Part shown: positions 8,959 to 25,942 of the stretch, piece by piece
Layout of the letters: each line of letters begins with the position of its first letter
Numbering within the stretch: the first letter of the stretch is position 1
Assembly (NCBI GenBank): GCA_024278555.1
Contig: JAJRSX010000181.1
Coordinates: 1 to 28,254, forward strand
Source of the DNA: a bacterium
GTDB lineage: Bacteria; CG2-30-53-67; CG2-30-70-394
Reading direction: 5' to 3'
Length of the DNA: 28,254 nucleotides
The notes under the pieces: model-generated
Database searches by the model: none
The model's input: only the letters and a program-made list of their open reading frames with translations
What the model was told of the DNA's origin: nothing
Translations under genes and position numbers: made by a program

Positions 8959-10458
8959 TTATACCTCGTGCTTCGCCCCCCCGAGGACGATGGCGTCACC
9001 GACAAGCTGGTGGATGCCACCGACCACCTCCATCGGGATGTCGTAGTACGGGAGGACCTTGGAGAACTGAGCCTTGCAGATCGCACAGATCAACGCCAGG
9101 TAGTTCACCCCGTGGCTCTCCATGACCGCGTGGAGCGCCTGGGCACGGGGCAGGACACCCTGAATGCGGAGCTCCATGAGGTCGTCCGTAAGCAGGCCGC
9201 CACCACCACCGCAACAGTAGGTACTCTCCTTGATCGTGTCCTCGGCCATCTCCACGAAGTTGTTACAGGTGGCCTTGATCAAATCACGCGGCACCTCAAA
9301 CTGGCCGCCCTCGTAGCCGCCCATGGAGGAGGCGCGGGCGACGTTGCACGAGTCGTGGAAGGTGACGATGCGCTCGTCGTTCGCCGACTTGTCGAGCTTC
9401 AAACCGCCGCGCTTGATCAAATCGAGGGTGAACTCACAGATGTGCTGGGGCACCGGGTAGCGGCTGTCGAGGAAGTCCCACGGCCCCACCAGGGTGTTCC
9501 AGAAGGAGTGGCCGACGCGCCAGGCGTGGCCACACTCACCCACAATGATCCGCTTGACGCCGAACTCCCGAGCCACGTCCTTGATCCGCTGAGCGATCTT
9601 GCGCATGGCGTGGAAATCACCCACGAACATCCCAAAGTTGGCGAACTCCGAGGCGTACGAGCTGACCGTCCAGCTGATACCTGCTTCGTGAAAGACCTTT
9701 CCGTAACCAATCAGGGAATCGACGTGCGGAGCGCTGAAGAAGTCCGCCGATGGTGGAATGAGAAGCACCTCGGTGCCCTTCTCATCCATCGGATAGCGCA
9801 CGTCGACGCCGGTCGCCTCCTGCACATCCTCCTCGAGAAACTCCATCGTGCCCTGGAGGGCGGGCGCCGGAATCCCGAGGTTGTTCCCGGTGTTGTAGAC
9901 CTTGCCGATGATCTCGTTGCTGTACTTCGAGCCCAGACCGATGTGATTCATGATCAGACGGGCCGCCATGGAGATCTCGGCGGTGTCGATGCCGTACGGA
10001 CAAAAGACGGAGCACCGGCGACACTGGCTGCACTGGTGGAAGTAGGTGTACCACTCGTCAAGGACCTCCTTGGTGAAATCCTCTGCCCCCACCAGCTTCG
10101 GAAAGAGCTTTCCTCCAAGGGTGAAGTAGCGCCGGTACACCTTGCGCATCAGGTCCTGGCGGGCAACCGGCATGTTGCGCGAGTCGTGGGTCCCAATGAA
10201 GTAGTGGCACTTGTCGGTGCAAGAGCCGCACTTCACGCAGATATCCATAAAGACCCGCAGCGCCTTGTTGGTATCCAAGACCTCGCGGAACTTCTCGATC
10301 GCCTTCTCTTGCCAGTTATCCACCAACTCCCCGGGGTAACCGAGCGCCTCGTTCAGCGCCGGTGATGACTCCAGGGTGTGGTAATGGGCAGTTGCCCCCT
10401 CCTCCATCAAGGGGATGCGAATCTTACCGTCGAGCTTGGGGGTAGCGATATCGGCCAC
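8959..10458 (-). CDS. dsrK: DsrK, HdrD-like iron-sulfur subunit of the DsrMKJOP complex
   Basis: DsrK is the cytoplasmic catalytic subunit that is thought to act on the DsrC disulfide/trisulfide. The 499-residue product has two [4Fe-4S] motifs, Cys74/77/80/84 (CVKCGSCTDKCHYF) and Cys143/146/149/153 (CSQCRRCSVFCPYG). It also has the cysteine-rich CCG elements of the HdrD family: GECGHAWR, HDSCNVAR, YCCGGGGG and ICAICKAQF. The GTG start follows AGGAGC and lies 9 bp after the dsrM stop, so the two genes are a cotranscribed pair. Length and motifs are as in sulfur oxidisers. Downstream comes cobA, not dsrL, dsrJ, dsrO or dsrP as in Allochromatium. Confidence 0.96.
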   Translation of the reverse strand: MADIATPKLDGKIRIPLMEEGATAHYHTLESSPALNEALGYPGELVDNWQEKAIEKFREVLDTNKALRVFMDICVKCGSCTDKCHYFIGTHDSRNMPVARQDLMRKVYRRYFTLGGKLFPKLVGAEDFTKEVLDEWYTYFHQCSQCRRCSVFCPYGIDTAEISMAARLIMNHIGLGSKYSNEIIGKVYNTGNNLGIPAPALQGTMEFLEEDVQEATGVDVRYPMDEKGTEVLLIPPSADFFSAPHVDSLIGYGKVFHEAGISWTVSSYASEFANFGMFVGDFHAMRKIAQRIKDVAREFGVKRIIVGECGHAWRVGHSFWNTLVGPWDFLDSRYPVPQHICEFTLDLIKRGGLKLDKSANDERIVTFHDSCNVARASSMGGYEGGQFEVPRDLIKATCNNFVEMAEDTIKESTYCCGGGGGLLTDDLMELRIQGVLPRAQALHAVMESHGVNYLALICAICKAQFSKVLPYYDIPMEVVGGIHQLVGDAIVLGGAKHEV

Positions 10459-10467
10459 GGGGCGCTC

Positions 10468-11205
10468 CTACGCAGACTTCGTGTTCTCGAAGGGAGAGAC
10501 GTGCCGCCGTTCGGTGCTGCGCGTCCAATCGATCTGGTTACGCGTCGGGCTGAAGAAGATGCCGCCGGCGTGCATCAGCTTGCTGAACGGGAAATAGACC
10601 AACAGTGCGAGCACCAGAGAGAAATGGAGCAAAAACCACGGATCCGCCGGCACCGGCTGCGGATGCAGCCTGGCGAGGCCAAGCATGAAGGTCTTCACCG
10701 CGATGATGTCGGTCCGGACGCGGAACTTGATCAACAGGCCGCTCGCGGCGATCGCAAGCAGAAGGAAGAGGACGAAATAGTCGGAGAAGGCGGAGATATA
10801 CCGCGTCCGCGCATGAAAGAAACGCCGCCCCAGGAGCCACACGATACCGATGACCACCATGATCCCGCCGGTCACACCGACAAGCTGTTCCACCTGGCTG
10901 TACCACATGGGCAGGGGCCAGACGAAATAGCGGAGGTGCCGGAAGATCAGGAACAGCAATCCGAAGTGGAAGCAGTACGCACCTACCCAGATCCACCTAT
11001 TACCCCGAAAGAGGCTGCGGAAGAGGAGTGCATCCGAGGCGACCCGCGCCGCGGTGCCAATGCCGCTCTTGGCCCCGGGCGTCCCGACAATCACCAGCGG
11101 TGCCGGGGTCTTGGCAAAGCGCCAAATCTTGAAGAGAAAGCCACCCAACAAAATCGCGAACGCGATGTAATAGAGGATGATATAGACCATCGACAGTGAC
11201 GTCAT
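10468..11205 (-). CDS. dsrM: DsrM, NarI-like cytochrome b subunit of the Dsr membrane complex
   Basis: DsrM anchors DsrK to the membrane and exchanges electrons with the quinone pool through haem b. The 245-residue product starts MTSLSMVYIILYYIAFAILL and has about five to six hydrophobic segments. Paired histidines suited to haem b are seen in YCFHFGLLFLIFRHLRYF and in FLLHFSL. The C-terminal tail (NQIDWTRSTERRHVSPFENT) is cytoplasmic by family. The ATG at 11205 has a GGAGAGG ribosome site; a longer frame to 11283 adds an implausible basic leader. It is preceded by a strong hairpin and dsrC and followed directly by dsrK. Confidence 0.95.
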   Translation of the reverse strand: MTSLSMVYIILYYIAFAILLGGFLFKIWRFAKTPAPLVIVGTPGAKSGIGTAARVASDALLFRSLFRGNRWIWVGAYCFHFGLLFLIFRHLRYFVWPLPMWYSQVEQLVGVTGGIMVVIGIVWLLGRRFFHARTRYISAFSDYFVLFLLLAIAASGLLIKFRVRTDIIAVKTFMLGLARLHPQPVPADPWFLLHFSLVLALLVYFPFSKLMHAGGIFFSPTRNQIDWTRSTERRHVSPFENTKSA

Positions 11206-11293
11206 CTCGGCCTCTCCGGCGAGTGTCCGTGCAACCTTAGCGACTACCCTGCACTGCCCACGCGGCGGGCGAATGCCCGACACGCGTTGCCCC

Positions 11294-11368: not shown

Positions 11369-11704
11369 TCAAACGCAGCCGGTCGGCTTTGGGAGACCGG
11401 CGATCTTGCATGCCTGCTTCGCCGGGCCGCCCGGGTAGAGCTCGTACAGGTACTTGGTGTTGCCCTTGTCGGCACCAAGCTTCTTGCCAATCGCCTTGGT
11501 GAGGATACGGATCATCGGCGCGATCTTGTACTCCTCGTAGTACTCACGGAGGAAGTTCACGACCTCCCAATGGTTGTCGGTCATTTCAACGCCCTCCTGC
11601 TCGGCGAGAAAGTTGGCGACGTCCATGTTCCAGTCCTCAAGATTCTGGAGGTAACCTTCCTCGTCGACTTCGAGCTGCTTGCCGTTCACTTCGATGCTGG
11701 CCAT
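11369..11704 (-). CDS. dsrC: DsrC, sulfur-carrier protein
   Basis: DsrC carries sulfur on a swinging C-terminal arm between DsrEFH, DsrAB and DsrMK. The 111-residue product has both arm cysteines, Cys99 and the penultimate Cys110 (CKIAGLPKPTGCV), with ten residues between them; having both cysteines distinguishes true DsrC from TusE. The conserved core WNMDVANFLA, HWEVVNFLREYYEEY and PGGPAKQACKIAGLPKP is complete. The ATG has an AGGAGAG ribosome site. It lies between dsrJ and dsrM and is followed by the 17-bp hairpin, which could help maintain a higher dsrC transcript level than dsrMK. Confidence 0.98.
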   Translation of the reverse strand: MASIEVNGKQLEVDEEGYLQNLEDWNMDVANFLAEQEGVEMTDNHWEVVNFLREYYEEYKIAPMIRILTKAIGKKLGADKGNTKYLYELYPGGPAKQACKIAGLPKPTGCV

Positions 11705-12329: not shown

Positions 12330-12623
12330 CTACAGCCAAGGGCACATCACGTTGTCGGCCGCCAGTGCCACGAACCCGGCGTAGTCACAGATCTCCACGC
12401 CATCGACAATCGCGTCGATGCCACGCGCCTGCAGATCCGGGCCAAGGGCGTAGACCTTGTACTTGCCGGCCGCCTCTTTCACCATCGATTCGTACTTGGT
12501 ACCGGCCTTGGCCGCAAAAACACCATCCTCGAACAGCAGGATGTGGTCGTCAGGTTGCGCGCTCGCGAGACAGCTTGCCAAAGCGCTACGATCAAACGGC
12601 GATTTATTAACTGTATGAAGCAA
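12330..12623 (-). CDS. dsrH: DsrH, subunit of the DsrEFH sulfurtransferase
   Basis: DsrH is the smallest subunit of the hexameric DsrE2F2H2 complex, related to TusB. The 97-residue product begins MLHTVNKSPFDRSALASCL, the family hallmark, with Cys18 as the conserved cysteine. The C-terminus ends in the family-like tail DNVMCPWL. The start codon is TTG with a strong AGGAGG seven bases upstream. It lies 30 bp after dsrF. A gap of 138 bp separates it from dsrJ; no gene or clear promoter is seen there. Confidence 0.95.
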   Translation of the reverse strand: MLHTVNKSPFDRSALASCLASAQPDDHILLFEDGVFAAKAGTKYESMVKEAAGKYKVYALGPDLQARGIDAIVDGVEICDYAGFVALAADNVMCPWL

Positions 12624-12653: not shown

Positions 12654-13025
12654 TCAGAACGGCAGGACAACGTCCTGCTCGGCCATCACCTTGGCGATGG
12701 TATCACGATCCACAACCTCTACCGGAATCATCAGGTCGTCCGGCGTCAGACCACGATCCTTCATCGACTGGCCATCCACGTAGACCTTCTCGATACCGTA
12801 GTCCTCCATCACCCGGTAGGTGGTGGAAAACTCCTTCATTCCGATTCCGGACGAATCTTTGTCCTTCTTCAGGTCAAACACACCGTCGTCGACAAAGGCC
12901 GCCGCATATTCTTGCTCGTAGGCGGCAAAAATAAGCATCACCTCCAGCCCCTCGTAGGCATATACCGAACCGTAGGGAGCCTGACGGCACATAAACATAA
13001 TTTTGGTCAGTCGATCTCTCGCCAT
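12654..13025 (-). CDS. dsrF: DsrF, subunit of the DsrEFH sulfurtransferase
   Basis: DsrF is the TusC-like structural subunit of the DsrEFH complex. The 123-residue product starts MARDRLTKIMFMCRQAPYGS and keeps the family motif YEGLEVMLIFAAYEQ, with FVDDGVFDL and MKEFSTTYRVMEDYGIEKVYVD. The ATG at 13025 has GGAGA upstream and lies 4 bases after the dsrE stop codon; the longer frame into dsrE is rejected. Cys13 is the only cysteine near the N-terminus. Confidence 0.96.
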   Translation of the reverse strand: MARDRLTKIMFMCRQAPYGSVYAYEGLEVMLIFAAYEQEYAAAFVDDGVFDLKKDKDSSGIGMKEFSTTYRVMEDYGIEKVYVDGQSMKDRGLTPDDLMIPVEVVDRDTIAKVMAEQDVVLPF

Positions 13026-13029
13026 TGAA

Positions 13030-13389
13030 TCAATCTCCAAAGGTGACCATACGGTCGGCCTCAAGGCAGATTTCGCTCAACTGCCCGAGACCGTCAATGC
13101 GAACGTGGGGGATAATCACCTCGGGCGAAATCCCCCGCCGCTTTCCCGCCGCGATGCACACGATCAGGTCGAGATCGTGTTTCTCGGCGAGCTCCGCCCA
13201 GCGGGTGGCAATGTTGCGGTCGTCCTGGGGTGGCTCCATCAACTTCGCCACGTTATAGACGCCGTCATGATAGAAGAAAATCCCCTGGATCTTGTGACCG
13301 GCTTCGAGCGCTGCCTGCGTAAAGTTGTACGCGCTGTCCGACGCCTGATGGTTGTAGGGGCCTTCAAGGATTAGAATACCAAACGTCAT
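13030..13389 (-). CDS. dsrE: DsrE, active-site subunit of the DsrEFH sulfurtransferase
   Basis: DsrE (TusD-like) accepts persulfide sulfur and hands it to DsrC. The 119-residue product has the active-site Cys78 in DLIVCIAAGKRRGI, at the same residue number as in Allochromatium vinosum. Other family features are the N-terminal GILILEGPYNHQASDSAYNF and FFYHDGVYN. The presence of DsrEFH is diagnostic for the oxidative Dsr pathway. The ATG follows GGAAGGGA. It is the first dsr gene after the Rrf2 regulator, with a 248-bp gap that has no other gene and could hold the operon promoter. Confidence 0.97.
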   Translation of the reverse strand: MTFGILILEGPYNHQASDSAYNFTQAALEAGHKIQGIFFYHDGVYNVAKLMEPPQDDRNIATRWAELAEKHDLDLIVCIAAGKRRGISPEVIIPHVRIDGLGQLSEICLEADRMVTFGD

Positions 13390-13637: not shown

Positions 13638-14108
13638 TTATGGGGCATCCTGTCCCGAACCATCGCCGTCTGCGGCCGGCTCACACTGGCCGTCACACCG
13701 CTCCTTCTCCATGGCCGCCAGACTCTCGAAGGTCACCCCGGCCAGCTCTTCCAGGAGACGGTCCTGGAGCCGACGCCACACCTCGGTGAGGGCACACTCG
13801 CCGAGCCTCGTACAGCGGGACTGGGGACGCATGCAGTCGGCCACGTGCATCTGCCCCTCCACCGCCTCATAGACGTCACGCAGGGTGATCTCCACGGGCG
13901 GCAAGGCCAGTGAAACCCCGCCGTTACGGCCCCGGTGGGCGTTGACGATGCCGGCCCGCACGAGGTCGCGGGTCACCCCGGCAAGGAACTTCGCCGGCAC
14001 CTTCCGTTGCCGCGCGATCTCCTCGGTACTCACCACCACCCCCGGCTCAAGGGTCGATAGGTGAAGGACCCCAAGGGCGGCGTATTCAGTAGCTCGGGTA
14101 AACTGCAT
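13638..14108 (-). CDS. Rrf2-family iron-sulfur-type transcriptional regulator
   Basis: The 156-residue product has the Rrf2 winged helix (about 1-75) with STEEIARQRKVPAKFLAGVTRDL and the wing HRGRNGGVSLALPP. A cysteine triad follows, Cys92-x6-Cys99-x5-Cys105, close to the IscR arrangement (92/98/104). It therefore probably binds a [2Fe-2S] or [4Fe-4S] cluster and senses iron-sulfur, redox or NO status. A C-terminal extra pair (RCDGQC) and acidic tail are unusual. The gene sits directly upstream of dsrE on the same strand and diverges from the radical SAM gene, so it is a candidate regulator of both. A palindrome overlaps its own ribosome site. The target cannot be proved from sequence. Confidence 0.92.
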   Translation of the reverse strand: MQFTRATEYAALGVLHLSTLEPGVVVSTEEIARQRKVPAKFLAGVTRDLVRAGIVNAHRGRNGGVSLALPPVEITLRDVYEAVEGQMHVADCMRPQSRCTRLGECALTEVWRRLQDRLLEELAGVTFESLAAMEKERCDGQCEPAADGDGSGQDAP

Positions 14109-15333: not shown

Positions 15334-15984
15334 ATGTCCTGCCTCTACCCCGTGATGCTCCGCCTCCAAAACCGCGCCGTGCTCGTGGTCGGCGCCGGGG
15401 CGATCGCGGCGAGCAAGGTCACCTCGCTCCTGGAGGCGGGGGCGCGGGTGACGGTGGTCGCCCCCGAGGTAGAGACCGCCCTCGAAGCGCGCGCTCGCCG
15501 CGGTGAGATCGAGCTGCTGCGCGAGGAGGTGGCCGCCCACCACCTCGACGGCAAGTGGCTGGTCATCGGCGCCAGCGGCGTCGAGCCGGTAGACCAATGG
15601 CTCGCGGACGAGTGCGACCGGCGCCGCATCTTCCTCAACGCGGTCGACCGCCCCCCGGCGTGCACCTTCTACGTCCCGTCGGTGGTGCGCGAGGATCCGG
15701 TCCTGGTGGCCATCTCCACCGACGGCACCAGCCCGGCCCTCGCGGGCCGCCTGCGCCGCATCCTCGGCGACGCCCTGCCACCGCGGGTCGGGGAGCTCGC
15801 TTCGTTGCTGGGGAGCTTCCGCGACGAGGCAAAGGCGCGTCTCCCCACCCAGAAGGGGCGGGCCCGCCTCTTCACCGCCCTCCTCGACGGCCCGCTACCG
15901 GAGTTGGTCGAGGCGGGCCGCATGGAGGAGGCGCGCCGGCTGGTGGCCCAGGCGATCGACGACGCCGCCGGGACGACGCCTTGA
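15334..15984 (+). CDS. Precorrin-2 dehydrogenase / sirohydrochlorin ferrochelatase-like protein (SirC/CysG N-terminal type)
   Basis: The enzyme oxidises precorrin-2 to sirohydrochlorin with NAD and, in bifunctional members, inserts iron to give sirohaem. The 216-residue product has the Rossmann motif VLVVGAGAIAASK (about 16-28). Asp105 in LNAVDRPPACTFYVPSVV corresponds to the catalytic Asp of CysG. The motif ISTDGTSPALAGRLR is also present. A C-terminal helical domain follows, and the length suits the stand-alone form without the methyltransferase, which is supplied by cobA at 8125. Its stop codon overlaps the TTG start of dsrN (TTGA), so the two genes are translationally coupled. Whether it also inserts iron cannot be told from the sequence. 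Confidence 0.93.
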   Translation: MSCLYPVMLRLQNRAVLVVGAGAIAASKVTSLLEAGARVTVVAPEVETALEARARRGEIELLREEVAAHHLDGKWLVIGASGVEPVDQWLADECDRRRIFLNAVDRPPACTFYVPSVVREDPVLVAISTDGTSPALAGRLRRILGDALPPRVGELASLLGSFRDEAKARLPTQKGRARLFTALLDGPLPELVEAGRMEEARRLVAQAIDDAAGTTP

Positions 15985-17348
15985 GCCTCTCCCTCGACCG
16001 CCTGGTGGTCGCCGGCGCCCACCGCTCCTCCGGCAAGACGACCCTCTCCATCGCCCTGGCCGCCGCCTTCACCGAGGCCGACACGGCGGTGCAGCCCTAC
16101 AAGAAGGGGCCCGATTTCATCGACCCCATGTGGCTCACCCTCGCCGCCGGACGACCGTGTGCCACCCTCGACTTCTTCTTCCACGGTGACGACGGCATCC
16201 TCCCCGCCCTCGCCTCTGCCGCTCCCGGGGCCGAGCTGGCGATCATCGAGGGCAACATCGGCCTCCACGACGGCGTCGACATTGACGGCAGCGACTCCAC
16301 CGCGGCCCTGGCGCGCGCCGTCGCCGCGCCGGTCCTCCTGGTGGTCAACTGCCGGGGGATGACCCGTGGGGTGGCACCGCTGCTCCTGGGGATGCGCGAT
16401 TTTCCCCCGCAGCCACGGATCGGCGGCGTCGTCCTCAACCAGGTGGGAAGCGCCCGCCACCAGGCCAAGCTGGTCGCGGCGATCGAGCGGTACGTCGACC
16501 TTCCGGTCCTCGGCGCCCTGCCGCGCCTGGCCGACGGCGAGGTGCGCCAGCGCCACCTCGGCATTACCCCGGTGGCGGAGGCAGAGCGGTGCGGCGAGTT
16601 GGTCGCCCGTCTCGCGGCCGCCGCCCGCGACCACCTCGACCTCGACCGCATCCGGAAGATCGCCGCCACCGCCCCCGACCTCGACGTTCCCTCGCCGACG
16701 CCCCCCGCCGCCGCCACCCGGCGGCTCCGTCTCGGGGTCGCCCGCGACGCCGCCTTTACCTTCTATTACCCGGAGAACCTCGCCGCTTTGGAGAGGGCCG
16801 GCGCCGAGCTCGTCCCCTTCAGCCCGCTGTCCGACGACCACCTGCCGGAGGTAGACGGCCTCTACATCGGCGGCGGCTTCCCCGAGTTCCACGCCGCCCG
16901 CCTCACGGCCAACACCGCCCTTCGCGGGGAGATCGCCCGCCACGGCCGTGACGGCATGCCGATCTACGCCGAGTGCGGCGGCCTCATGTACCTCAGCCGC
17001 GCCTTGACCTGGCACGGCGAGACCCACGAGATGGTCGGCCTGCTGCCGTGCGCGGTAGAGATGACCGACCGCCCCCAGGCGGGCGGCTATTGCCGCCTCA
17101 CCCCCACCGGCGCCCACCCGTGGGGCGGCGGCGTGGCGGTGCGCGCCCACGAGTTCCACCACTCCCACGTCATCGGTCTGGGGGAGGTGGAGCTCGCCTT
17201 CCGCGTGGAGCGCGGCCGGGGCATCGACGGCACGGGAGACGGGATCGTCGTCGCCCGCACCGTCGCCACCTACGCCCACCTCCACGCCGGCGCCACCCCC
17301 GACTGGGCGGAGCGCTTCGTCGATTTTGTGACCCGCGTGCGCCAATAG
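15981..17348 (+). CDS. dsrN: DsrN, CobB/CbiA-like sirohaem amidase
   Basis: DsrN is a glutamine-dependent amidotransferase thought to convert sirohaem to sirohaem amide, the cofactor of DsrAB. The 455-residue product starts at a TTG overlapping the upstream stop codon. It has the P-loop AGAHRSSGKTT (about 11-21), the CbiA motifs KKGPDFIDP and IIEGNIGLHDG, and a class-I glutaminase domain (about 250-455) with the nucleophile Cys332 (YAECGGLMYLS) and a late YAHLHAG histidine. Alone it could be read as cobyrinate a,c-diamide synthase for B12. Coupling to the precorrin-2 dehydrogenase and the dsr setting favour DsrN. A convergent double hairpin separates it from the second dsrA. Confidence 0.9.
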   Translation: MSLSLDRLVVAGAHRSSGKTTLSIALAAAFTEADTAVQPYKKGPDFIDPMWLTLAAGRPCATLDFFFHGDDGILPALASAAPGAELAIIEGNIGLHDGVDIDGSDSTAALARAVAAPVLLVVNCRGMTRGVAPLLLGMRDFPPQPRIGGVVLNQVGSARHQAKLVAAIERYVDLPVLGALPRLADGEVRQRHLGITPVAEAERCGELVARLAAAARDHLDLDRIRKIAATAPDLDVPSPTPPAAATRRLRLGVARDAAFTFYYPENLAALERAGAELVPFSPLSDDHLPEVDGLYIGGGFPEFHAARLTANTALRGEIARHGRDGMPIYAECGGLMYLSRALTWHGETHEMVGLLPCAVEMTDRPQAGGYCRLTPTGAHPWGGGVAVRAHEFHHSHVIGLGEVELAFRVERGRGIDGTGDGIVVARTVATYAHLHAGATPDWAERFVDFVTRVRQ

Positions 17349-17554: not shown

Positions 17555-17588
17555 AAAACGCCCCCCGGGAGCCGGCTCCCGGGGGGCG
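17555..17588 (-). terminator. Probable intrinsic terminator of the second dsrA
   Basis: A perfect palindrome at 17559-17588 (15-base arm starting CGCCCCCCGGGAGCC) is followed on the minus strand by TTTTGCCCTTT. It lies about 30 bases after the dsrA2 stop codon. The T-tract is short, but the stem is very strong. dsrN converges from the other side. Confidence 0.65.
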
Positions 17589-17598
17589 CAGCCCCGTC

Positions 17599-17625
17599 AA
17601 GAATCTGCCTAGCAGATTCTTTTAG
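17599..17625. terminator. Second hairpin between dsrN and dsrA2
   Basis: AAGAATCTGC and GCAGATTCTT pair around CTA. Read in the plus direction the stem is followed by TTTAG, so it could terminate transcription coming from dsrN. In the minus direction it begins at the dsrA2 stop codon. Confidence 0.5.
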
Positions 17626-18833
17626 TAGTCCGCCTTGAAGAAGGGGTTGTCGCGCGGGTACTCGACCATCTCCGGGATCGCCTCCAGCCCCGCCGCCTTG
17701 AGGAATGCCTGAATTCCGTGGCGCTCGATGCACTCCCCGAGGCGCTCGTGGTCCAGGCCGTTCTCCGCCCACCAGTCGATCACCCGGTCGGTGAGCTCCA
17801 GCAGCTTGTCGATGTCTTCGTCGGTCTCCAGCTTCATGAAGGGGACCATCATCGAGCCGAGCATGTTGCCCACCTTCAGGTGGCCCTTGCCGCCCATGAG
17901 CAGCGACACGCCGCGGTCCTTGCCCGGCGACAGCGCCTCGGTCATCACGTTGATGCAGTGCATGCAGCGGACGCAGTCATGGTTGTGGATCTCGAAGTCC
18001 CGCGTCCCCTTGAGCTCGATGGCGCGGGTCGGGCACATGTTGATCACCGAGTTGACCACGTAGTCGAGGCCGTGCTCGTCGATAAACGAGCCGACCTTCT
18101 CGTGGTCGATCTGGATGTCGTCGCGCCAGGTGCCGATCACCGCGCAGTCGGCGCGCTGGGTGGCGTTGGTGCAGTCATTGGGGCAGCCGGAGAACTTGAA
18201 CTTGAACTTGTACGGATACGACGGCCGGTGGACGTCGTCGCCGTACCGCTGCAACACCTTGTAGTGGGCGCCGAGGGTGTCGTAGCAGGCGTGCTCGCAC
18301 CGCGCCTGGCCAACGCACGACATCCCGGTCCGCATGTCCGCGCCGGCGCCGCCGAGGTCCCAGCCGAGCTTGTTGATCTCGTCGAAGATGTGCTGGATGT
18401 TGTCCTGGGTACAGCCAATCAGCATCAGGTTGCCGGTCTGGCCGTGGGTACAGATAATCCCCGATGCCTCCCGCTCCCAAACGTCGCACAGGTCACGGAG
18501 CGACTTGGTGGAATAGTGGAAGCCCGCCGGGGGCTGGACCCGGAGAGTGTGGAACTCCGTCGCCTCCGGGAACTTGTCGGCAAGGACCGAGAAGCGCGGG
18601 ATGATCCCGGCGCCGTAGCCCCGCACCCCAACCACGCCGCCCTTCCAGTAGCCCATCTTGGTCTCGTATGAGTACTCGAGCTGGTCGAGTGCCCCGCGGA
18701 CCATGGTGTTGTGGGTGCGGTTGGCGAGCTTCTTCAGACCGGTGACAAAGCTCGGCCACGGCCCCTTCTCCAACTCGTCGAGCATCGGGGTGGGGTGGAG
18801 GAAGGACTCCTGATTTTCGCTTGACCCTGACAT
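17622..18833 (-). CDS. Second DsrA-type dissimilatory sulfite reductase alpha subunit, without its own dsrB
   Basis: The 403-residue product has the same length as the DsrA encoded at 22435-23646. By hand count it differs at about 53 positions with no gap (about 87% identity). All cofactor cysteines are kept: Cys173 and Cys179 (MSCVGQARCEHAC), Cys217 and Cys221 (SGCPNDC) for the sirohaem-coupled cluster, and the ferredoxin-domain set (MCPTRA and DCVRCMHC). Most changes lie in the first 10 residues, around 30-130 and in 335-403. The ATG at 18833 has an AGGAGG ribosome site. It is separated from dsrL by a terminator and about 500 bp of repeat-rich DNA and is followed by its own terminator, so it is probably transcribed alone. 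No dsrB lies next to it. It looks intact, not decayed. Confidence 0.93.
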   Translation of the reverse strand: MSGSSENQESFLHPTPMLDELEKGPWPSFVTGLKKLANRTHNTMVRGALDQLEYSYETKMGYWKGGVVGVRGYGAGIIPRFSVLADKFPEATEFHTLRVQPPAGFHYSTKSLRDLCDVWEREASGIICTHGQTGNLMLIGCTQDNIQHIFDEINKLGWDLGGAGADMRTGMSCVGQARCEHACYDTLGAHYKVLQRYGDDVHRPSYPYKFKFKFSGCPNDCTNATQRADCAVIGTWRDDIQIDHEKVGSFIDEHGLDYVVNSVINMCPTRAIELKGTRDFEIHNHDCVRCMHCINVMTEALSPGKDRGVSLLMGGKGHLKVGNMLGSMMVPFMKLETDEDIDKLLELTDRVIDWWAENGLDHERLGECIERHGIQAFLKAAGLEAIPEMVEYPRDNPFFKADY

Positions 18834-19066
18834 GGTGGGACCTCCTGAGGAGAGATAAGCATGAATGACCATAAGCTATCTTGCATTTACAACCCCTTCG
18901 CGCTTCTGCACAAGCGACGCCCACCGGCAATCCGACCCCCGCCGGTCCCATTCGACAATACGGCTATCCCCTCAGCGCAGCCGTCGTTCGTTGGGTACGG
19001 CGGGACTCCTAACGGGCGGCGGCCAACGCAAACACTATGGAGAAAGGGGCTCCGGGCAGGTCATCA

Positions 19067-19218
19067 CCACGGGGGACACGGGGGGCTCATGGGGCAAGCC
19101 AGGGCCGACAGCGAGCTGACTTCTTGGCGGCTCCGTCGTAAGGCCACCAGGCCGTCCTTCGCGGCGGCGTGTAGAGAGGCGCCGCCCCTCTCTGCCCCTC
19201 CCTCCCCGTGTCCCCCGT
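19067..19218. repeat. Perfect 17-bp inverted repeat pair
   Basis: CCACGGGGGACACGGGG at 19067-19083 is repeated inverted at 19202-19218 with 118 bp between. Such 'CCACGGGGGACACGGGG' tracts are typical dispersed intergenic repeats. The pair could be the remains of a larger palindromic element or a recombination scar near the dsrA duplication. Confidence 0.55.
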
Positions 19219-19248
19219 GGCCAACCCTGTGTTGGAAGGGGGCCGCCT

Positions 19249-19276
19249 GTGGACGCACCACCAAGGCGGTGCGTCC
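19249..19276. repeat. Short hairpin with 9-bp arms
   Basis: GGACGCACC and GGTGCGTCC pair across a 10-base spacer. No T-tract follows. It lies inside the repeat-rich gap and has the same GGTGCGCC-like character as the REP-like palindrome at 17373. Confidence 0.45.
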
Positions 19277-19339
19277 GCTGCACAAAGGGGATAGGCCGTT
19301 TCGACGGGGGCGCAGAGGCCAGCACACCGCCGCCACCGG

Positions 19340-19375
19340 AAAAAAAACCGCCCCCCGGGAATCCGGGGGGCGGTT
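19340..19375 (-). terminator. Intrinsic terminator after dsrL
   Basis: On the minus strand a 13-bp stem (AACCGCCCCCCGG, loop ATTC, complement) is followed directly by a run of eight T. It starts 29 bases after the dsrL stop codon. This is the clearest rho-independent terminator in the window and marks the end of the dsrR-A-B-L unit. Confidence 0.9.
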
Positions 19376-19403: not shown

Positions 19404-21155
19404 CTACAGCCCCTCACCCATCCCCATGGTGATGTAACCGGTGGGGCAGACGAGGGAGCAGATGTGGCACCCCACGCACCCCTTGTAGACGGTGAACATC
19501 ACCGTCCCAATCGGGTTCTTCTTGAACTTGGTGATCGTCTCCTGGGGGCAGAAGATCATGCACTGATCACACTCGAAGCAGAGGCCGCAGGACATGCAGC
19601 GCGACGATTCAGCCTCGGTCTCCTCCGGGGTCAGCTTGGTGAGGAGGTCGTCCCAGTTGTCCTTCACCTCCGTCAGATGGACGTGGCTGCGGGTGTGCTG
19701 GGGGGTGATCTCGAAGTAGTCGGACTTGAGCTTCTCGAAGCGGATCACATCCTCGTAATCCGCCTTCTCAAAGGGTCGGCCGGAGACGTAGTCATCGATC
19801 CGCTCCGCCGCCTTGCGGCCGTGGCCGATAGCGGTGGTCAGGAGGGTGAGGGAGAGGCAGTCGCCACCCCCGAAGACCCCCTCCATCCCCTCGACCTGGT
19901 AGTTGCGATCGACCTTCATCCACGGGGCGTCACCGACGACCTCCTCGACCCCCTCGCGATCAATCGCCTGGCCGATGGCAGAGACGAGCATGTCGGTCTC
20001 CACCTCGAACTCGGTGCCGGCGATCGGCTTGTAGCGGAAGAAGGGGATCGGCGAGTCCCAACCCTCTTCACCCTTCTCCTTCGGCTCCATGCGCACGCAC
20101 TCGACGATGATGCCGCCCTTCGGGTTCTCCTTCACCTGCACGGTGCCGATGGCGTACTCCACCTTGGTGCCCTCTTGCAAGGCATCGGTGAGCTCCTGGT
20201 CGAGGCACTTCATGTCCTCACGGGTGACCGCCGACAGCAGGGTGACCTCCTCGGCGCCGAGACGGAGGGCGAGGCGAACCACGTCCATGGCCACGTCCCC
20301 GTCACCGACCGCGGTGACCCGCTTCGGGACCTGCATCCCCTCCTTACCCTTCTCTTCGAAGCCGACCAGGAACTCGACGGCGTTCGAGACACTCGGGAGA
20401 TCGGCCCCGGGGATCGGCAGATCCCGGCCGTTCTGCCCGCCGATACCGAGGAATACGGCATCGTACTGCTCGCGAAGCTGGTCGAGAGTGACGTCCTTGC
20501 CCAGCTTGGTATTGGTCTTCACCTCGATGCCGAGGTCGATGATCCGCTGGATCTCCGCGTCGAGCTCACGCCGCGGCATGCGGTAGCCCATGATGCCGTA
20601 GCGGGCCATGCCGCCGAGCTTCGCCCGCCCCTCGTAGAGGACCACGTCGTGGCCGCGGCGGCGGAGCTGGTAGGCGCAGGAGAGGCCGGCCGGTCCGCCA
20701 CCCACCACCGCCACCTTCTTGCCGGTAGAGACGGTGGGCTTTTCGAAGCTGAGGCCGTTCTCGACCCCGTAATCGCCGATGGCGTGCTCCACCGCGTTGA
20801 TGCCGATGGTCTCATCGACAAACTGGCGGTTGCACCCCTCCTGACACGGCGCCGGGCACAGACGACCCATCATCGCCGGGAAGGGGTTGCGCTCGGTGAT
20901 CCGACGCCACGCCGCCTCCCACTTGTTGTCCGACTTATCAACCCCCCGGAGGAGGTTGTGGTAGCCGCGGATATCCTCACCCGCCGGACAGCTCGCCTGG
21001 CACGGAGGGGTTCGCTTTACATAGGTGGGGCACAGGTGGCTGTGGTCCCCATTGACAACGATCTTGTCCCAGCCGGTCTCCTCCGAGTACGGGGGAAACT
21101 CGTACTCCAGGGCCGACTGGAGGATCGGATTCATATCCACTGTTTTTTCTGCCAT
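19404..21155 (-). CDS. dsrL: DsrL, iron-sulfur flavoprotein NAD(P)H:acceptor oxidoreductase
   Basis: DsrL takes electrons from DsrAB during sulfur oxidation and reduces NAD(P)+. The 583-residue product resembles the small subunit of glutamate synthase. It has N-terminal cluster cysteines (Cys52, Cys56, Cys100, Cys104, Cys108), an FAD motif VAVVGGGPAGLSCA (about 148-161), the second nucleotide site VTAVGDGDVAMDVV, and GVFGGGDC near the FAD. A C-terminal ferredoxin domain carries CMSCGLCFECDQCMIFCP and CVGCHICSLVCP. DsrL is usually found after dsrK in purple sulfur bacteria; here it follows dsrB directly. The ATG has GAGGATC upstream. A strong terminator follows. Which DsrL subtype and which pyridine nucleotide it prefers cannot be settled here. 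Confidence 0.95.
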   Translation of the reverse strand: MAEKTVDMNPILQSALEYEFPPYSEETGWDKIVVNGDHSHLCPTYVKRTPPCQASCPAGEDIRGYHNLLRGVDKSDNKWEAAWRRITERNPFPAMMGRLCPAPCQEGCNRQFVDETIGINAVEHAIGDYGVENGLSFEKPTVSTGKKVAVVGGGPAGLSCAYQLRRRGHDVVLYEGRAKLGGMARYGIMGYRMPRRELDAEIQRIIDLGIEVKTNTKLGKDVTLDQLREQYDAVFLGIGGQNGRDLPIPGADLPSVSNAVEFLVGFEEKGKEGMQVPKRVTAVGDGDVAMDVVRLALRLGAEEVTLLSAVTREDMKCLDQELTDALQEGTKVEYAIGTVQVKENPKGGIIVECVRMEPKEKGEEGWDSPIPFFRYKPIAGTEFEVETDMLVSAIGQAIDREGVEEVVGDAPWMKVDRNYQVEGMEGVFGGGDCLSLTLLTTAIGHGRKAAERIDDYVSGRPFEKADYEDVIRFEKLKSDYFEITPQHTRSHVHLTEVKDNWDDLLTKLTPEETEAESSRCMSCGLCFECDQCMIFCPQETITKFKKNPIGTVMFTVYKGCVGCHICSLVCPTGYITMGMGEGL

Positions 21156-21303: not shown

Positions 21304-22383
21304 CTAGAAGCGGACGTGGGCCGACTTGTTGAAGGAGATCCGGGCGTGACGGTAGTTATCGATCATGTACTTATCAAAGGTCAGACCGGTCTCTGCGAAG
21401 AACCGCTTCCAACCGATGCGGTCGATCCACTCACCGACACGCTCCCACGGCTTACCACCCGCCTTGTAGGCCGCGAGGATGTTCTTCACGACCTCCGCCA
21501 CCTCCGGCCAACGGGGCGGGTTGTTCGGCAGGCCGTGGGCGACCAGCTTCATGTTGGTCGGCTTGGTTCGCGCGTTGCCGAGCTTGCCGCCGACCCAGAC
21601 GGCGAACTTGGAGTACTCGGGGTGGTTGATCTCCATCGCCGGGCAGGCACCGAAGCAGGCACCGCAGACGATGCACTTGGACTCCTCGACCATCAGCGAC
21701 GGCTTGCCGTTCACCGTGGTCGGCCGGATCGCCGCCACCGGGCAGCGCGCCACCGCCTTGGGGAGCTCGCAGATGTTGGAGAGGATGTCGTGGTTGATCC
21801 GCGGCGGCCGGGTGTGCTGGATCACCACCGCGATGTCCGCCTGACCGCCGCAGTTGATCTCGCAGCAGGAGGTGGAGAGACGCACGCGGTTGGGCATCTC
21901 CTCACGACCGAACTCCTCGAAGATCGCGTCCATCAGGCTCTTGTTGGCACCGGAGGCGTCGGTCGCCGGGATGTCGCAGTGGAACCACCCCTGGGTGTGG
22001 GCGAAGCAGGTGATCGCGTTGCCGGTACCGCCGACGGGGTGACCCTCCGCCTCCAGCTCCTCGATGATCTTGTCGACGTTCGCCTCCTCGGTGGTCATCA
22101 GCTCGCAGTTGGAGCGGACGGTGAAGCGGAGGTGGCCCTCGCAGTACTTGTCGGCGATGTCGCACAGGAAGCGGACGGAGTCGACGGTCATCTGCCGCTG
22201 GATGCCGCAGCGAACGGTGAAGAGCTTCTCACCGCTCTCCGCCACGTGGCAGAGGACGCCGGGGCGCGGCCGGTAGTGGTACTGCCACTTGCCGAAGTTG
22301 CGGACCTGGGCCGGGTGGAGCTCCGGGATGTGGTCACGCACACCGGACTCGATGGTTTTCCATTCTTCGGTGGATGCTGACAT
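21304..22383 (-). CDS. dsrB: DsrB, dissimilatory sulfite reductase beta subunit
   Basis: DsrB forms the alpha2-beta2 reductase with DsrA and holds the catalytically active sirohaem. The 359-residue product has normal length. Features include the SCCEINCGG cysteine motif (Cys173, Cys174, Cys178), RCPVAAIRP, and the ferredoxin insertion CIVCGACFGACP (Cys237/240/243/247). The ATG has AAGGAAC upstream and lies 51 bp after the dsrA stop codon. It is the only dsrB in the window, although two dsrA genes are present. Confidence 0.97.
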   Translation of the reverse strand: MSASTEEWKTIESGVRDHIPELHPAQVRNFGKWQYHYRPRPGVLCHVAESGEKLFTVRCGIQRQMTVDSVRFLCDIADKYCEGHLRFTVRSNCELMTTEEANVDKIIEELEAEGHPVGGTGNAITCFAHTQGWFHCDIPATDASGANKSLMDAIFEEFGREEMPNRVRLSTSCCEINCGGQADIAVVIQHTRPPRINHDILSNICELPKAVARCPVAAIRPTTVNGKPSLMVEESKCIVCGACFGACPAMEINHPEYSKFAVWVGGKLGNARTKPTNMKLVAHGLPNNPPRWPEVAEVVKNILAAYKAGGKPWERVGEWIDRIGWKRFFAETGLTFDKYMIDNYRHARISFNKSAHVRF

Positions 22384-22434: not shown

Positions 22435-23646
22435 CTAGTAGGCGGCCTTGAAGAAGGGGTTGTCGCGCGGGTGCTCGACCATGTCCGGGGTCGCCTCCAG
22501 ACCGGCGGCATCGAGGAAGGTCTGGATGCCGAGGCGCTCGATGCACTCCCCGAGCCGCTCGTGGTCCAGTCCGTTCTCCGCCCACCAGTCGATCACCCGG
22601 TCGGTGAACTCGATCATCTTGGCGAAATCCTCGTCCGTCTTCAGCTTCATGAAGGGGACCATCATCGAGCCGAGCATGTTACCCACCTTCAGGTGGCCCT
22701 TGCCGCCCATGAGCAGCGATACGCCGCGATCCTTGCCCGGGGAGAGGGCCTCGGTCATGACGTTGATGCAGTGCATGCAGCGGACGCAGTCGCTGTTATT
22801 GATCTCGATGTCGCGCGTCCCCTTCAGCTCGATGGCGCGGGTGGGGCACATGTTGATCACCGAGTTGACCACATAGTCGAGACCGTTGTTGTCGATGAAG
22901 GCACCAACCTTCTCGTGGTCGATCTGGATGTCGTCGCGCCAGGTGCCGATCACCGCGCAGTCGGAGCGCTGGGTGGAGTTGGCACAGTCGTTGGGGCAGC
23001 CGGAGAACTTGAACTTGAACTTGTAGGGGAACGACGGCCGGTGGACGTCGTCGCCGTAGTTGTTGAGGATCTTGAAGTGGGCGCCGAGGGTGTCGTAGCA
23101 GGCGTGCTCACAGCGCGCCTCGCCGACACACGACATGCCGGAGCGCATGTCCGCGCCGGCGCCGCCGAGATCCCAGCCGAGCTTGTTGAGCTCGTCGAAG
23201 ATGTGCTGCACATTGTCCTGGGTGCAGCCGATGAGCTGCAGGTTGCCGGTCTGGCCGTGCATGCAGATGATGCCGGAGGCCTCCCGCTCCCAAACGTCAC
23301 ACACCTCGCGGAGCGCCTTGGTGGAGTAGTGGAAGCCCGCCGGCGGCTGGATGCGGAGGGTGTGGAACTCGGTCGCCTCGGGGAACTTGTCGGCGATCAT
23401 CGAGAAGCGGGCGATGATCCCGGCGCCGTACCCGCGCACGCCGACCACGCCGCCCTTCCAATACCCCATGCGCGTCTCATAGGAGTACTCGAGCTGATCG
23501 AGAACCCCACGCACCATGGGATTGTGGGTCCGGTTGGCGAGCTTCTTCAGGCGGGTGATGAAGCCCGGCCACGGCCCCTTCTCCAGCTCGTCGAGGAGTG
23601 GAGTGGGGTGGAGGAATGTCTCCTGGGTATCCGTCTGTTCTGACAT
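22435..23646 (-). CDS. dsrA: DsrA, dissimilatory sulfite reductase alpha subunit
   Basis: With DsrB this enzyme oxidises DsrC-bound or polysulfidic sulfur to sulfite in the oxidative pathway. The 403-residue product starts MSEQTDTQETFLHPTPLLDE. It has the sirohaem-cluster cysteines Cys173-x5-Cys179 and Cys217-x3-Cys221 (SGCPNDC), the phosphate/sirohaem-binding basic motifs around RIQPPAGFHYSTK and YKFKFKFSG, and ferredoxin-domain cysteines 267, 287, 290 and 293. The ATG follows GGAAGGAGA. It leads dsrA-dsrB-dsrL, with dsrR 124 bp upstream on the same strand. A TATAGA -10-like hexamer (complement at 23716-23721) lies about 70 bases upstream without a good -35. Confidence 0.97.
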   Translation of the reverse strand: MSEQTDTQETFLHPTPLLDELEKGPWPGFITRLKKLANRTHNPMVRGVLDQLEYSYETRMGYWKGGVVGVRGYGAGIIARFSMIADKFPEATEFHTLRIQPPAGFHYSTKALREVCDVWEREASGIICMHGQTGNLQLIGCTQDNVQHIFDELNKLGWDLGGAGADMRSGMSCVGEARCEHACYDTLGAHFKILNNYGDDVHRPSFPYKFKFKFSGCPNDCANSTQRSDCAVIGTWRDDIQIDHEKVGAFIDNNGLDYVVNSVINMCPTRAIELKGTRDIEINNSDCVRCMHCINVMTEALSPGKDRGVSLLMGGKGHLKVGNMLGSMMVPFMKLKTDEDFAKMIEFTDRVIDWWAENGLDHERLGECIERLGIQTFLDAAGLEATPDMVEHPRDNPFFKAAY

Positions 23647-23770: not shown

Positions 23771-24094
23771 CTACGAGATCTCCTCTGGTCGCGACCCCGC
23801 AGGGACATCGAGCGGGTTGATGAATACGAATTCGCCCCCCTCCGGGTGGCCATCGCCCTCCTCGAAGTCGAGGACGAGGTCATCCACCAGGGGGGCGCTC
23901 TCACTATCGACGACCACCGTCACCCCTTCGCTGGTGAAGGTCGTCTCACCGTCGGCCACCTCATCGAAGCCCATCCGGTAGGAGAGCCTGTCGTTGCCGA
24001 GGCGTCGCGCCTCAATACGCAACGCCATGCCATGGAGATCGTTCGTTGAAGAACGACGCACCTGTTCAGCAGCACGAGGTGTAACGGAGACCAT
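23771..24094 (-). CDS. dsrR: DsrR, cysteine-less A-type scaffold-like protein
   Basis: DsrR resembles IscA/ErpA iron-sulfur carriers but lacks their three cysteines; in Allochromatium it has been proposed to act in post-transcriptional control of dsr expression. The 107-residue product begins MVSVTPRAAEQVRRSS and carries the A-type fold motifs LRIEARRLGNDRLSYRMGFD, GVTVVVD and FVFINP, with no cysteine at all. The ATG at 24094 is chosen because it aligns with the family start; a GTG at 24133 adds 13 basic residues. The ribosome site is weak. It stands first in the dsrR-A-B-L group, whereas the classical position is after dsrN. Confidence 0.85.
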   Translation of the reverse strand: MVSVTPRAAEQVRRSSTNDLHGMALRIEARRLGNDRLSYRMGFDEVADGETTFTSEGVTVVVDSESAPLVDDLVLDFEEGDGHPEGGEFVFINPLDVPAGSRPEEIS

Positions 24095-24436
24095 GGCGTA
24101 CCCAAAAAGTCGGTGCCGCACAGGCCGCTTCACCTAACCGCGGCCGCCCGGCCGGCCGAGAAGGATACAGCCACGGATCATCTTTTTCCACCCCCCTCCC
24201 GGTCTCTACCAAAATCCAGTGGCCCAACCACCTCCCCACCCCCGCGACGCAACCTAACCTGTGGTATGAAGATTGCATGTCTGTACGCCAGGGGATCGGG
24301 TGGCTGACCAACGCAAGACCGCGTCGCACCTGACCCTGCCTGCGTTTCCGCCTCCCCGGCCCGGTGGCCGGTGAAGCAGAATAGGTGAGCACTTAATTGC
24401 CCATATGTGCACCAAATAACCATTCCTGGCGCCCCA
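24095..24436. other. Divergent promoter region between dsrR and the NtrC-like regulator
   Basis: This 342-bp stretch has no supported gene. A Cys-containing 13-codon frame starting MKIACLYARGSGG (near 24266) is too short to claim. The region is the natural place for control of the dsrRABL unit and of the regulator gene. I see no sigma-54 element and no clear -10/-35 pair; the AT-richer part is 24385-24425, just before the regulator start. Confidence 0.5.
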
Positions 24437-25942
24437 ATGCCCTCCTCACCCATCCACGTCGTCTTCGTCTGCCCGGCCGGCCAGACCCCCCCCAACTGGG
24501 CCGAAGCGGCGCCGCTCCTCGGCTGGCAGCTCGTCCCCCTCAGCCCCGCCGAGCTGCGCGAGTGCGCCACCCCGGAGCATGACACGGCGGCGGTGGTCTA
24601 CTGCGAGGGGACCGGCTGCGGCGAGCACAACGGCCGCCGCCCGGCGTGCAAGCGCACCGAGTACCACTGCCCGTCGGTGGAAGAGGTGCGGGCGGTCACC
24701 GGCGACCGCCCCCTGATCGTCATCGCCGAGCAGTCGGACCCCATGGCGGTCACCCACGCCCTCCTCCACGGCGCCACCCTCACCCTCCCCGCCCGACTGG
24801 AGGTGAACGAGCTACGCCGGATCCTCCAGGAGGCGCAGACCTCGCCGTGGCTGTCGCCCCCCTTCCACATCACCGGCGGCGAGGCGGGCGAGGACCCCCT
24901 GCCGCAGGTCGTCGGCCGGTCGCGGCCGATGCAGCGGGTGAAGACCCTGGTCCGCCGCTGGGCCGACCTCGACCGCCCCGGCACCATCCCCCTGCCGGTC
25001 CTCCTCTATGGCGAGACCGGCACCGGCAAGGGCCACGTCGCCCGCACCCTGCACCAGCTCGGCGGCCACAAGAAAGGCCGCTTCGTCACCGTGAGCTGTC
25101 GTGCCCAGTCCACCGAGGAGGTCGAGCGCGCCCTGTTCGGCGACCCCCGAGGCGGTCGCAGCGGGCACCGCGCCGACCTCCCCACCGGCGGCGCCATCGG
25201 CCGCGCCCGTGGCGGGGTCCTCTTCATCGACGAGATCCTCGCCCTCGCCCCCGCCACCCAGGCAAAGCTCGTCCGCTTCCTGGAGGAGCGCGCCCACCTG
25301 CGCCTGAGCGAGGCCCACGAGCCGGCGATGGACTTCCGCCTCATCGCCACCACCAACGACGACCTCCCACGGGCGATCGCCACCGGCCGCTTCCGCGCCG
25401 ACCTCTTCCACCGCGTCGAGTGCCTCACCCTCCAGATGCCGCCCTTGCGCGAGCGCGGCGACGACATCGTCCTTTTGGCACGCCACATCCTCGGGCAGTT
25501 CGCCGCGGAGCACGCCACCCCACCCTTCTCAATCTCCGCCGGCGCGGTCCACGCCCTGCGCCACTACGCGTGGCCGGGCAATGTGCGTGAGCTCAGGAAC
25601 GCCCTCATCCGCGCGGCAATGCGGGCCCACACCCACATCCTCCGGGCCACCGATCTCGGCCTCACCCGTCCGGCCCCGAGCGGCGAGACCCCGGATCTCG
25701 CGCCCCCCCCGCCCACGGCGACCGGCAGGCCACAGCCGATCCAGATCAAGAGCAACCGCCGGGTGTCGGTCGACTTCACCTCGATCGACCAGATCGACAT
25801 CGAGGGGCTGCGCCGCGACCTCATCCGCCAGGCGATGGAGGCGAGCCGCGGCAACCAGAGCGAGGCGGCCCGTCGCCTCGGCCTGTCGCGCAACGCCCTG
25901 CGCTACGCGGTCAAGAAGTACGGCATCGTCGGCAGCAGCTAA
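24437..25942 (+). CDS. NtrC-like AAA+ regulator lacking the sigma-54 contact motif, with a cysteine-rich N-terminal domain
   Basis: The 501-residue product has an N-terminal alpha/beta domain (about 1-135) with six cysteines (12, 43, 56, 61, 71, 78) and no receiver-type phosphorylation pocket. An AAA+ domain (about 155-400) has Walker A GETGTGKG (192-199), Walker B LFIDE (262-266), sensor ATTND and arginine-finger segment GRFRADLFHR. A Fis-type helix-turn-helix closes the protein (about 455-497; NQSEAARRLGLSRNALRYAVKKYGI). The GAFTGA loop that contacts sigma-54 is GGRSGH (239-244). Such proteins usually act with sigma-70 or as repressors. The gene diverges from dsrR, so it may control the dsr genes. 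The cysteine cluster could bind metal, iron-sulfur or sulfane sulfur. The start is uncertain: a GTG at 24407 is also in frame. Confidence 0.87.
   Translation: MPSSPIHVVFVCPAGQTPPNWAEAAPLLGWQLVPLSPAELRECATPEHDTAAVVYCEGTGCGEHNGRRPACKRTEYHCPSVEEVRAVTGDRPLIVIAEQSDPMAVTHALLHGATLTLPARLEVNELRRILQEAQTSPWLSPPFHITGGEAGEDPLPQVVGRSRPMQRVKTLVRRWADLDRPGTIPLPVLLYGETGTGKGHVARTLHQLGGHKKGRFVTVSCRAQSTEEVERALFGDPRGGRSGHRADLPTGGAIGRARGGVLFIDEILALAPATQAKLVRFLEERAHLRLSEAHEPAMDFRLIATTNDDLPRAIATGRFRADLFHRVECLTLQMPPLRERGDDIVLLARHILGQFAAEHATPPFSISAGAVHALRHYAWPGNVRELRNALIRAAMRAHTHILRATDLGLTRPAPSGETPDLAPPPPTATGRPQPIQIKSNRRVSVDFTSIDQIDIEGLRRDLIRQAMEASRGNQSEAARRLGLSRNALRYAVKKYGIVGSS

Follow-up and report, generated by a model that had tools for sequence, protein, structure and literature searches.

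A conserved second dsrA gene in a genome with a single dsrB: a probable alternative alpha subunit for an oxidative-type dissimilatory sulfite reductase

The window, by which we mean the whole stretch of 28,254 nucleotides analysed here (contig JAJRSX010000181.1), carries a dsr locus in which two alpha subunit genes of dissimilatory sulfite reductase accompany one beta subunit gene (Table 1). On the minus strand the order runs dsrA1, dsrB, dsrL, a terminator, dsrA2 and a second terminator; beyond dsrA2 lie convergent dsrN-like and sirohaem synthase genes, followed by the gene of an Rrf2-family regulator, dsrE, dsrF, dsrH, a dsrJ-like gene, dsrC, dsrM and dsrK. A small gene resembling those of A-type Fe-S scaffolds (23771-24133, minus strand; PF01521, a weak match), possibly dsrR-like, is positioned directly 5' of dsrA1 and is kept in the sister species described below, with a divergent sigma-54 activator gene (24407-25942, plus strand) beyond it. 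A gene at 7018-8016 (minus strand), adjoining a sirohaem methylase gene, encodes a protein whose C-terminal domain is DUF1858 and which also has a membrane region resembling COX1. A TauD-family dioxygenase gene (PF02668; 6120-7085, minus strand) is also found near the dsr cluster, and a tauD-like 'dsrQ' has been reported near dsr genes in several sulfur oxidisers (PMC7596348).

Table 1. Genes and transcriptional features of the dsr locus, ordered by position in the window
Feature	Position	Strand	Remarks
dsrK	8959-10458	minus	NF045796, 585 bits
dsrM-like membrane subunit	10468-11283	minus	PF02665
dsrC sulfur carrier	11369-11704	minus	TIGR03342
dsrH	12330-12623	minus	TIGR03011
dsrF	12654-13064	minus	TIGR03010
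dsrE	13030-13389	minus	TIGR03012
Rrf2-family regulator	13638-14108	minus	TIGR00738
sirohaem synthase (CysG N-terminal type: precorrin-2 dehydrogenase)	15334-15984	plus	PF13241, PF10414
dsrN-like CobB/CbiA sirohaem amidase	15987-17348	plus	PF07685, PF01656; convergent with dsrA2; named by homology and PMC10504309
terminator-like hairpin 3' of dsrA2	17555-17590	minus	kept in the sister species
dsrA2	17622-18833	minus	orphan second alpha subunit, oxidative-type dissimilatory sulfite reductase, 403 aa
dsrA2 upstream region	18834-19345	minus	AGGAGG ribosome site just 5' of ATG
intrinsic terminator between dsrL and dsrA2	19346-19375	minus	hairpin of -30.3 kcal/mol, then T8; also in the sister species
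dsrL-like FAD/Fe-S NAD(P)H oxidoreductase	19404-21155	minus	583 aa; PRK12771, 700 bits
dsrB	21304-22383	minus	only beta subunit gene of the genome, 359 aa; TIGR02066, 456 bits
dsrA1	22435-23646	minus	alpha subunit gene adjoining dsrB, 403 aa; orthologue in the sister species

Given that the YRR motif rule separates DsrL-2 from DsrL-1 (PMC7596348), the DsrL of the window, which has SAV at the position where DsrL-2 (NADP type) has YRR, is read as DsrL-1 (NAD type). In a phylogenetic tree, DsrA clusters with sulfur oxidisers, nearest to Magnetococcales. DsrA2 is of the oxidative type (rDsrA) by this tree position, by the accompanying dsrEFH, by a DsrL lacking YRR and by dsrD, which was not found in a search where three positive-control genomes gave matches. 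The aprA gene was found both in the genome of the window and in that of the sister species. This gene set matches a published predictor of sulfur oxidation (PMC7596348), and according to a survey the candidate phylum CG2-30-70-394 has DsrL-1 but no dsrD (PMC10591310). The small class to which the window belongs may be that lineage. The gene content indicates that the organism most probably oxidises sulfur rather than reducing sulfate.

The original prediction held that the locus encodes two DsrA proteins of 403 residues, 3.6 kb apart, which differ at about 53 positions without an indel, and that the second retains every cofactor cysteine and has its own ribosome site, upstream gap and terminator; each of these statements was borne out. 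Alignment showed the two proteins to be full length and in register, with 87% identity, 53 amino acid substitutions and no indel, while their coding DNA differs at 156 nucleotides, more than half of them at codon position 3. Against the dsrA profile TIGR02064, dsrA2 scored 518.6 bits (profile positions 1-385 of 402) and dsrA1 516.9 bits, both above the curated equivalog cut-off of 392.85. All 14 cysteines are common to both copies, and 8 of them show little or no variation among 80 relatives; DsrA2 retains C173, C179, C217, C221, C267, C287, C290 and C293 together with T133. Among the 95 columns that are invariant in those relatives, DsrA2 has no deviation and DsrA1 has two (S28G and G32R), so that it is the dsrB-linked copy, rather than the orphan, that bears changes at invariant columns (codons 28 and 32). 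In the sister species both copies have a single common deviation (V296A).

The gap between dsrL and dsrA2 is 570 bp in length and starts with the strong post-dsrL terminator, the counterpart of which in the sister species has a hairpin of -35.2 kcal/mol followed by a T-run. Because terminators are found on both sides of dsrA2 in both species, dsrA2 is predicted to be a transcription unit of its own, separate from dsrABL. Alignment of the regions upstream of dsrA1 and dsrA2 revealed no meaningful similarity beyond the ribosome-site stretch and no common promoter, and a consensus scan gave no convincing sigma-70 promoter for dsrA2 and defined no conserved promoter or operator.

That two alpha genes are accompanied by one beta gene, as had been claimed from the window, holds for the whole genome (3.06 Mb in 211 contigs, rated 100% complete with 0.68% contamination), in which exactly two dsrA and one dsrB were found. 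A second dsrB elsewhere, which would have given dsrA2 a partner, was absent from whole-genome protein searches and dsrB-profile searches. Nor does any dsrB lie beside dsrA2, which thus departs from the alpha2-beta2 rDsrAB pattern of an alpha gene with its own adjoining beta gene.

We used the one other genome of the genus available for comparison, an independent assembly of a sister species (G001), to examine the history of the two copies. The gene order is identical (dsrA1-dsrB-dsrL-dsrA2-dsrN), although it is spread over three contigs, and the dsrA copies were joined across them by inference from synteny: one contig (C178) ends within dsrA1, whose upstream neighbours match those in the window; a second (C53) runs from the 3' end of dsrA1 through dsrB and dsrL into dsrA2; and a third (C42) leads from the 3' end of dsrA2 onward into dsrN. 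The contigs break inside dsrA because the copies share an overlap of 160-199 bp, exact or with one mismatch. The dsrA2 product of the sister species is 92% identical to DsrA2 of the window. Its two dsrA copies are identical over gene nucleotides 688-1005 (318 bp; L116, L117, L118) and diverged elsewhere, pointing to recent gene conversion around the ferredoxin-domain cysteines, while the longest identical run between the window's copies is 58 bp. A tree from all columns misplaced dsrA1 of the sister species, which we attribute to the inclusion of this conversion tract, and the analysis was repeated with the tract removed. The resulting codon-model tree (IQ-TREE) paired the dsrA1 genes of the two species with each other, and likewise their dsrA2 genes, and the alternative topologies were rejected (AU p = 0.0014 for within-genome pairing, and 2e-6). 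The protein tree without the tract agreed, with support of 94/92 for the A2 pair and rejection of within-genome pairing (AU p = 0.0066), although the A1 pair was weakly supported (48/45). At the residue level, 15 sites distinguish A1 from A2 in each of the two species, 9 separate the species, and none crosses the pattern. Combined, these comparisons strongly support a duplication of dsrA that predates the split of the two species, contradicting the suggestion in the original prediction that dsrA2 might be a recent duplicate.

Codon alignment was also informative about selection (all values by Nei-Gojobori, NG86). Between dsrA1 and dsrA2 of the window, dN was 0.074 and dS 0.444 (dN/dS about 0.17), and between species the values were dN 0.059, dS 0.406 and dN/dS 0.15 for A1 orthologues, 0.048, 0.606 and 0.08 for A2 orthologues, and 0.037, 0.301 and 0.12 for dsrB orthologues. 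These low ratios, far below the value near 1 that would speak against dsrA2 being under selection, indicate that both copies are under purifying selection and that dsrA2 is not relaxed.

To see how unusual a lone extra dsrA is, we surveyed 48 Magnetococcia genomes (dsrA exceeded the cut-off in 42), 9 more dsrA-bearing genomes from a Pseudomonadota spread, 3 Desulfobulbales, the 6 other genomes of the window's class and 6 more distant genomes. No lone extra dsrA was seen in these approximately 66 other dsrA-bearing genomes, in which each dsrA has its own dsrB barring cases due to contig ends or broken genes, and no second dsrA was present at 80 named loci within up to 9 kb on either side. Three Magnetococcales genomes (G091, G096 and G098) that seemed to have dsrA only were rejected, as their dsrB is gapped or the contig ends. 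A full-text literature search outside subscription journals returned no description of a cellular orphan dsrA, and the arrangement of two alpha genes with one beta gene appears undescribed. In other respects the DsrA copies, DsrB and DsrL of the window are ordinary members of the rDsrAB systems with DsrL-1, DsrEFH and DsrC known from Allochromatium vinosum, Magnetococcales and Chlorobi, the nearest named relatives being Magnetococcales MAGs with 63-69% identity. Unlike in those systems, where the other dsrA genes checked with intact flanks adjoin their own dsrB, there are two alpha genes per beta gene here. More than one DsrA per genome is also a feature of duplicated or second dsrAB or dsrABL sets (Magnetococcales UR-1, PMC6783814; Moorella; CG2-30-53-67); however, every alpha in such sets comes with a beta of its own, and the sets often differ widely in sequence, whereas in the window the alpha gene alone was duplicated and the copies are 87% identical.

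The only parallel that we found for an extra lone dsrA is viral. In a viral collection, 40 dsrA-bearing contigs extend for at least 1.5 kb on the side where dsrB would lie; 38 of them lack dsrB, and the full-length copies among them, 33 in number, keep 8 of 8 conserved cofactor cysteines. Phages of sulfur oxidisers are known to carry dsrA without dsrB, which has been interpreted as boosting host sulfur oxidation, and the authors of that work asked why DsrB is never seen as a viral gene (PMC8190135). Like the rdsrA of SUP05 phages (e.g. Lauvirus lau218; PMC8190135), dsrA2 is an intact dsrA without dsrB, with its cysteines kept, presumed to use the DsrB of another gene. By contrast, the phage genes are viral, belong to gammaproteobacterial lineages and are about 50% identical, while dsrA2 is a cellular gene, retained by vertical descent, that arose from the dsrA of its own genome. 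A viral origin of dsrA2 was considered and rejected, as a viral scan for close proteins was empty and the phage copies are only about 50% identical, against 87% for DsrA1. Neither its neighbours, which are bacterial dsr and sirohaem genes, nor its sequence, which falls outside the viral clade, mark it as a phage AMG.

The sirohaem site of DsrA has been described as inactive and structural, with a conserved alpha-Thr in the place of the active-site arginine of assimilatory enzymes (PMC10229431). The alpha-Thr133 of A. fulgidus aligns with Thr133 in both DsrA1 and DsrA2, and two of the 15 fixed differences, at sites 129 and 137, flank it. Site 129 is M in A1 and T in A2, with F, L, M or C in the 80 relatives; site 137 is Q in A1, as in Magnetococcales, and M in A2, as in most others.

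The reading that fits best, and which we consider probable, is that dsrA2 encodes a functional alternative alpha subunit, expressed separately, that joins the single DsrB, because the gene is intact and conserved, evolves under purifying selection, is terminated separately and lacks a partner of its own. Of the three options offered in the original prediction, it is the alternative alpha subunit for the same DsrB that stands, while its condition-specific use is plausible from the separate transcription unit. We infer the expression of dsrA2, its pairing with DsrB (by homology) and the effect of the 15 fixed differences from sequence. On this reading, dsrA alone would have been duplicated in a common ancestor of two or more species of the genus, and DsrA2 would be expressed from its own transcription unit and assemble with the sole DsrB, yielding a second isoenzyme (alpha'2-beta2), mixed tetramers, or extra alpha supply at high demand. 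Because DsrB provides the catalytic sirohaem, and DsrA contributes the structural sirohaem site together with residues that line the catalytic pocket, an alpha swap could adjust the handling of substrate, the docking of DsrC or the redox behaviour of the enzyme with no need of another dsrB. DsrA2 may tune the pocket or may raise supply, and the sequence favours neither decisively. The conversion tract of the sister species, which keeps part of both proteins identical, fits dosage as well as specialisation. A bolder and tentative extension is that alpha subunits are exchanged on a shared DsrB, giving the genus two rDsr isoenzymes or mixed tetramers; alpha would then act as a regulatory or tuning module, activity being set by its residues 129 and 137 beside the catalytic sirohaem, and phages would exploit the same modularity with DsrA alone. 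The viral and cellular cases alike are consistent with modularity, an extra alpha being useful while beta comes from an existing gene.

If the two alphas were equivalent and the second copy only raised DsrA supply, for example because alpha is limiting or labile, the amino acid differences would be near neutral. The gene conversion suggested by the identical 318-bp stretch, the small number of functional columns that differ between the copies and the viral habit of adding dsrA alone are all compatible with pure dosage, but the 15 sites fixed differently in both species, including the two beside Thr133, and the position of dsrA2 between terminators, outside the dsrABL unit, make it rather unlikely. 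A role independent of DsrB, whether as a homomer or in complex with a different partner, for example in sirohaem-amide handling or DsrC persulfide binding, would suit a gene without its own dsrB whose neighbours make and modify sirohaem and include a convergent dsrN-like amidase. However, a DsrA homomer, one of the options in the original prediction, is disfavoured because DsrA carries an inactive, structural sirohaem site (PMC10229431) and would be without the DsrB catalytic site; adjacent subunits in these enzymes complete one another's cofactor sites, and DsrA2 retains all normal alpha columns, with no sign of a freed interface constraint, so that such a role is improbable. Gene duplicates are often transient, but that dsrA2 is a decaying redundancy kept for lack of time is very hard to reconcile with its origin before the species split, the dN/dS of its orthologues and the absence of disabling changes in either species. 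An artefact of assembly or binning, with the dsrA genes of two strains collapsed into one contig, might be suspected from an assembly of 211 contigs and from the breaks within dsrA in the sister species, but is the least credible explanation, because the synteny recurs in the independent sister-species assembly with the same two flanks per copy, and the window's copies differ by 13%, share no longer identical run than that given above and have different intergenic sequences.

DsrAB is both a sulfur-cycle marker and a key enzyme, and its subunits are treated as paired one to one. A lone second alpha kept across a species split represents a natural experiment on the contribution of the alpha subunit, which is supposedly structural, and a cellular orphan dsrA bears on the question of why viruses carry dsrA and not dsrB (PMC8190135).

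Five class relatives (G002-G006) each carry two distant dsrAB pairs, about 50% identical to that of the window, one near the oxidative branch and one deep, as compared with the one dsrB of the window's genus. Extra dsrB-like matches in two class relatives, G005 (L137, 4063-5166) and G007 (L138, 4021-5118), were considered as orphan dsrB and rejected, as their identity to DsrB is only about 23%. In G005, the next gene resembles a PAPS reductase gene, judged by reading its sequence. Because of this neighbour and the low identity to DsrB, the two genes probably encode other sirohaem reductases, namely an assimilatory sulfite reductase of unusual type.
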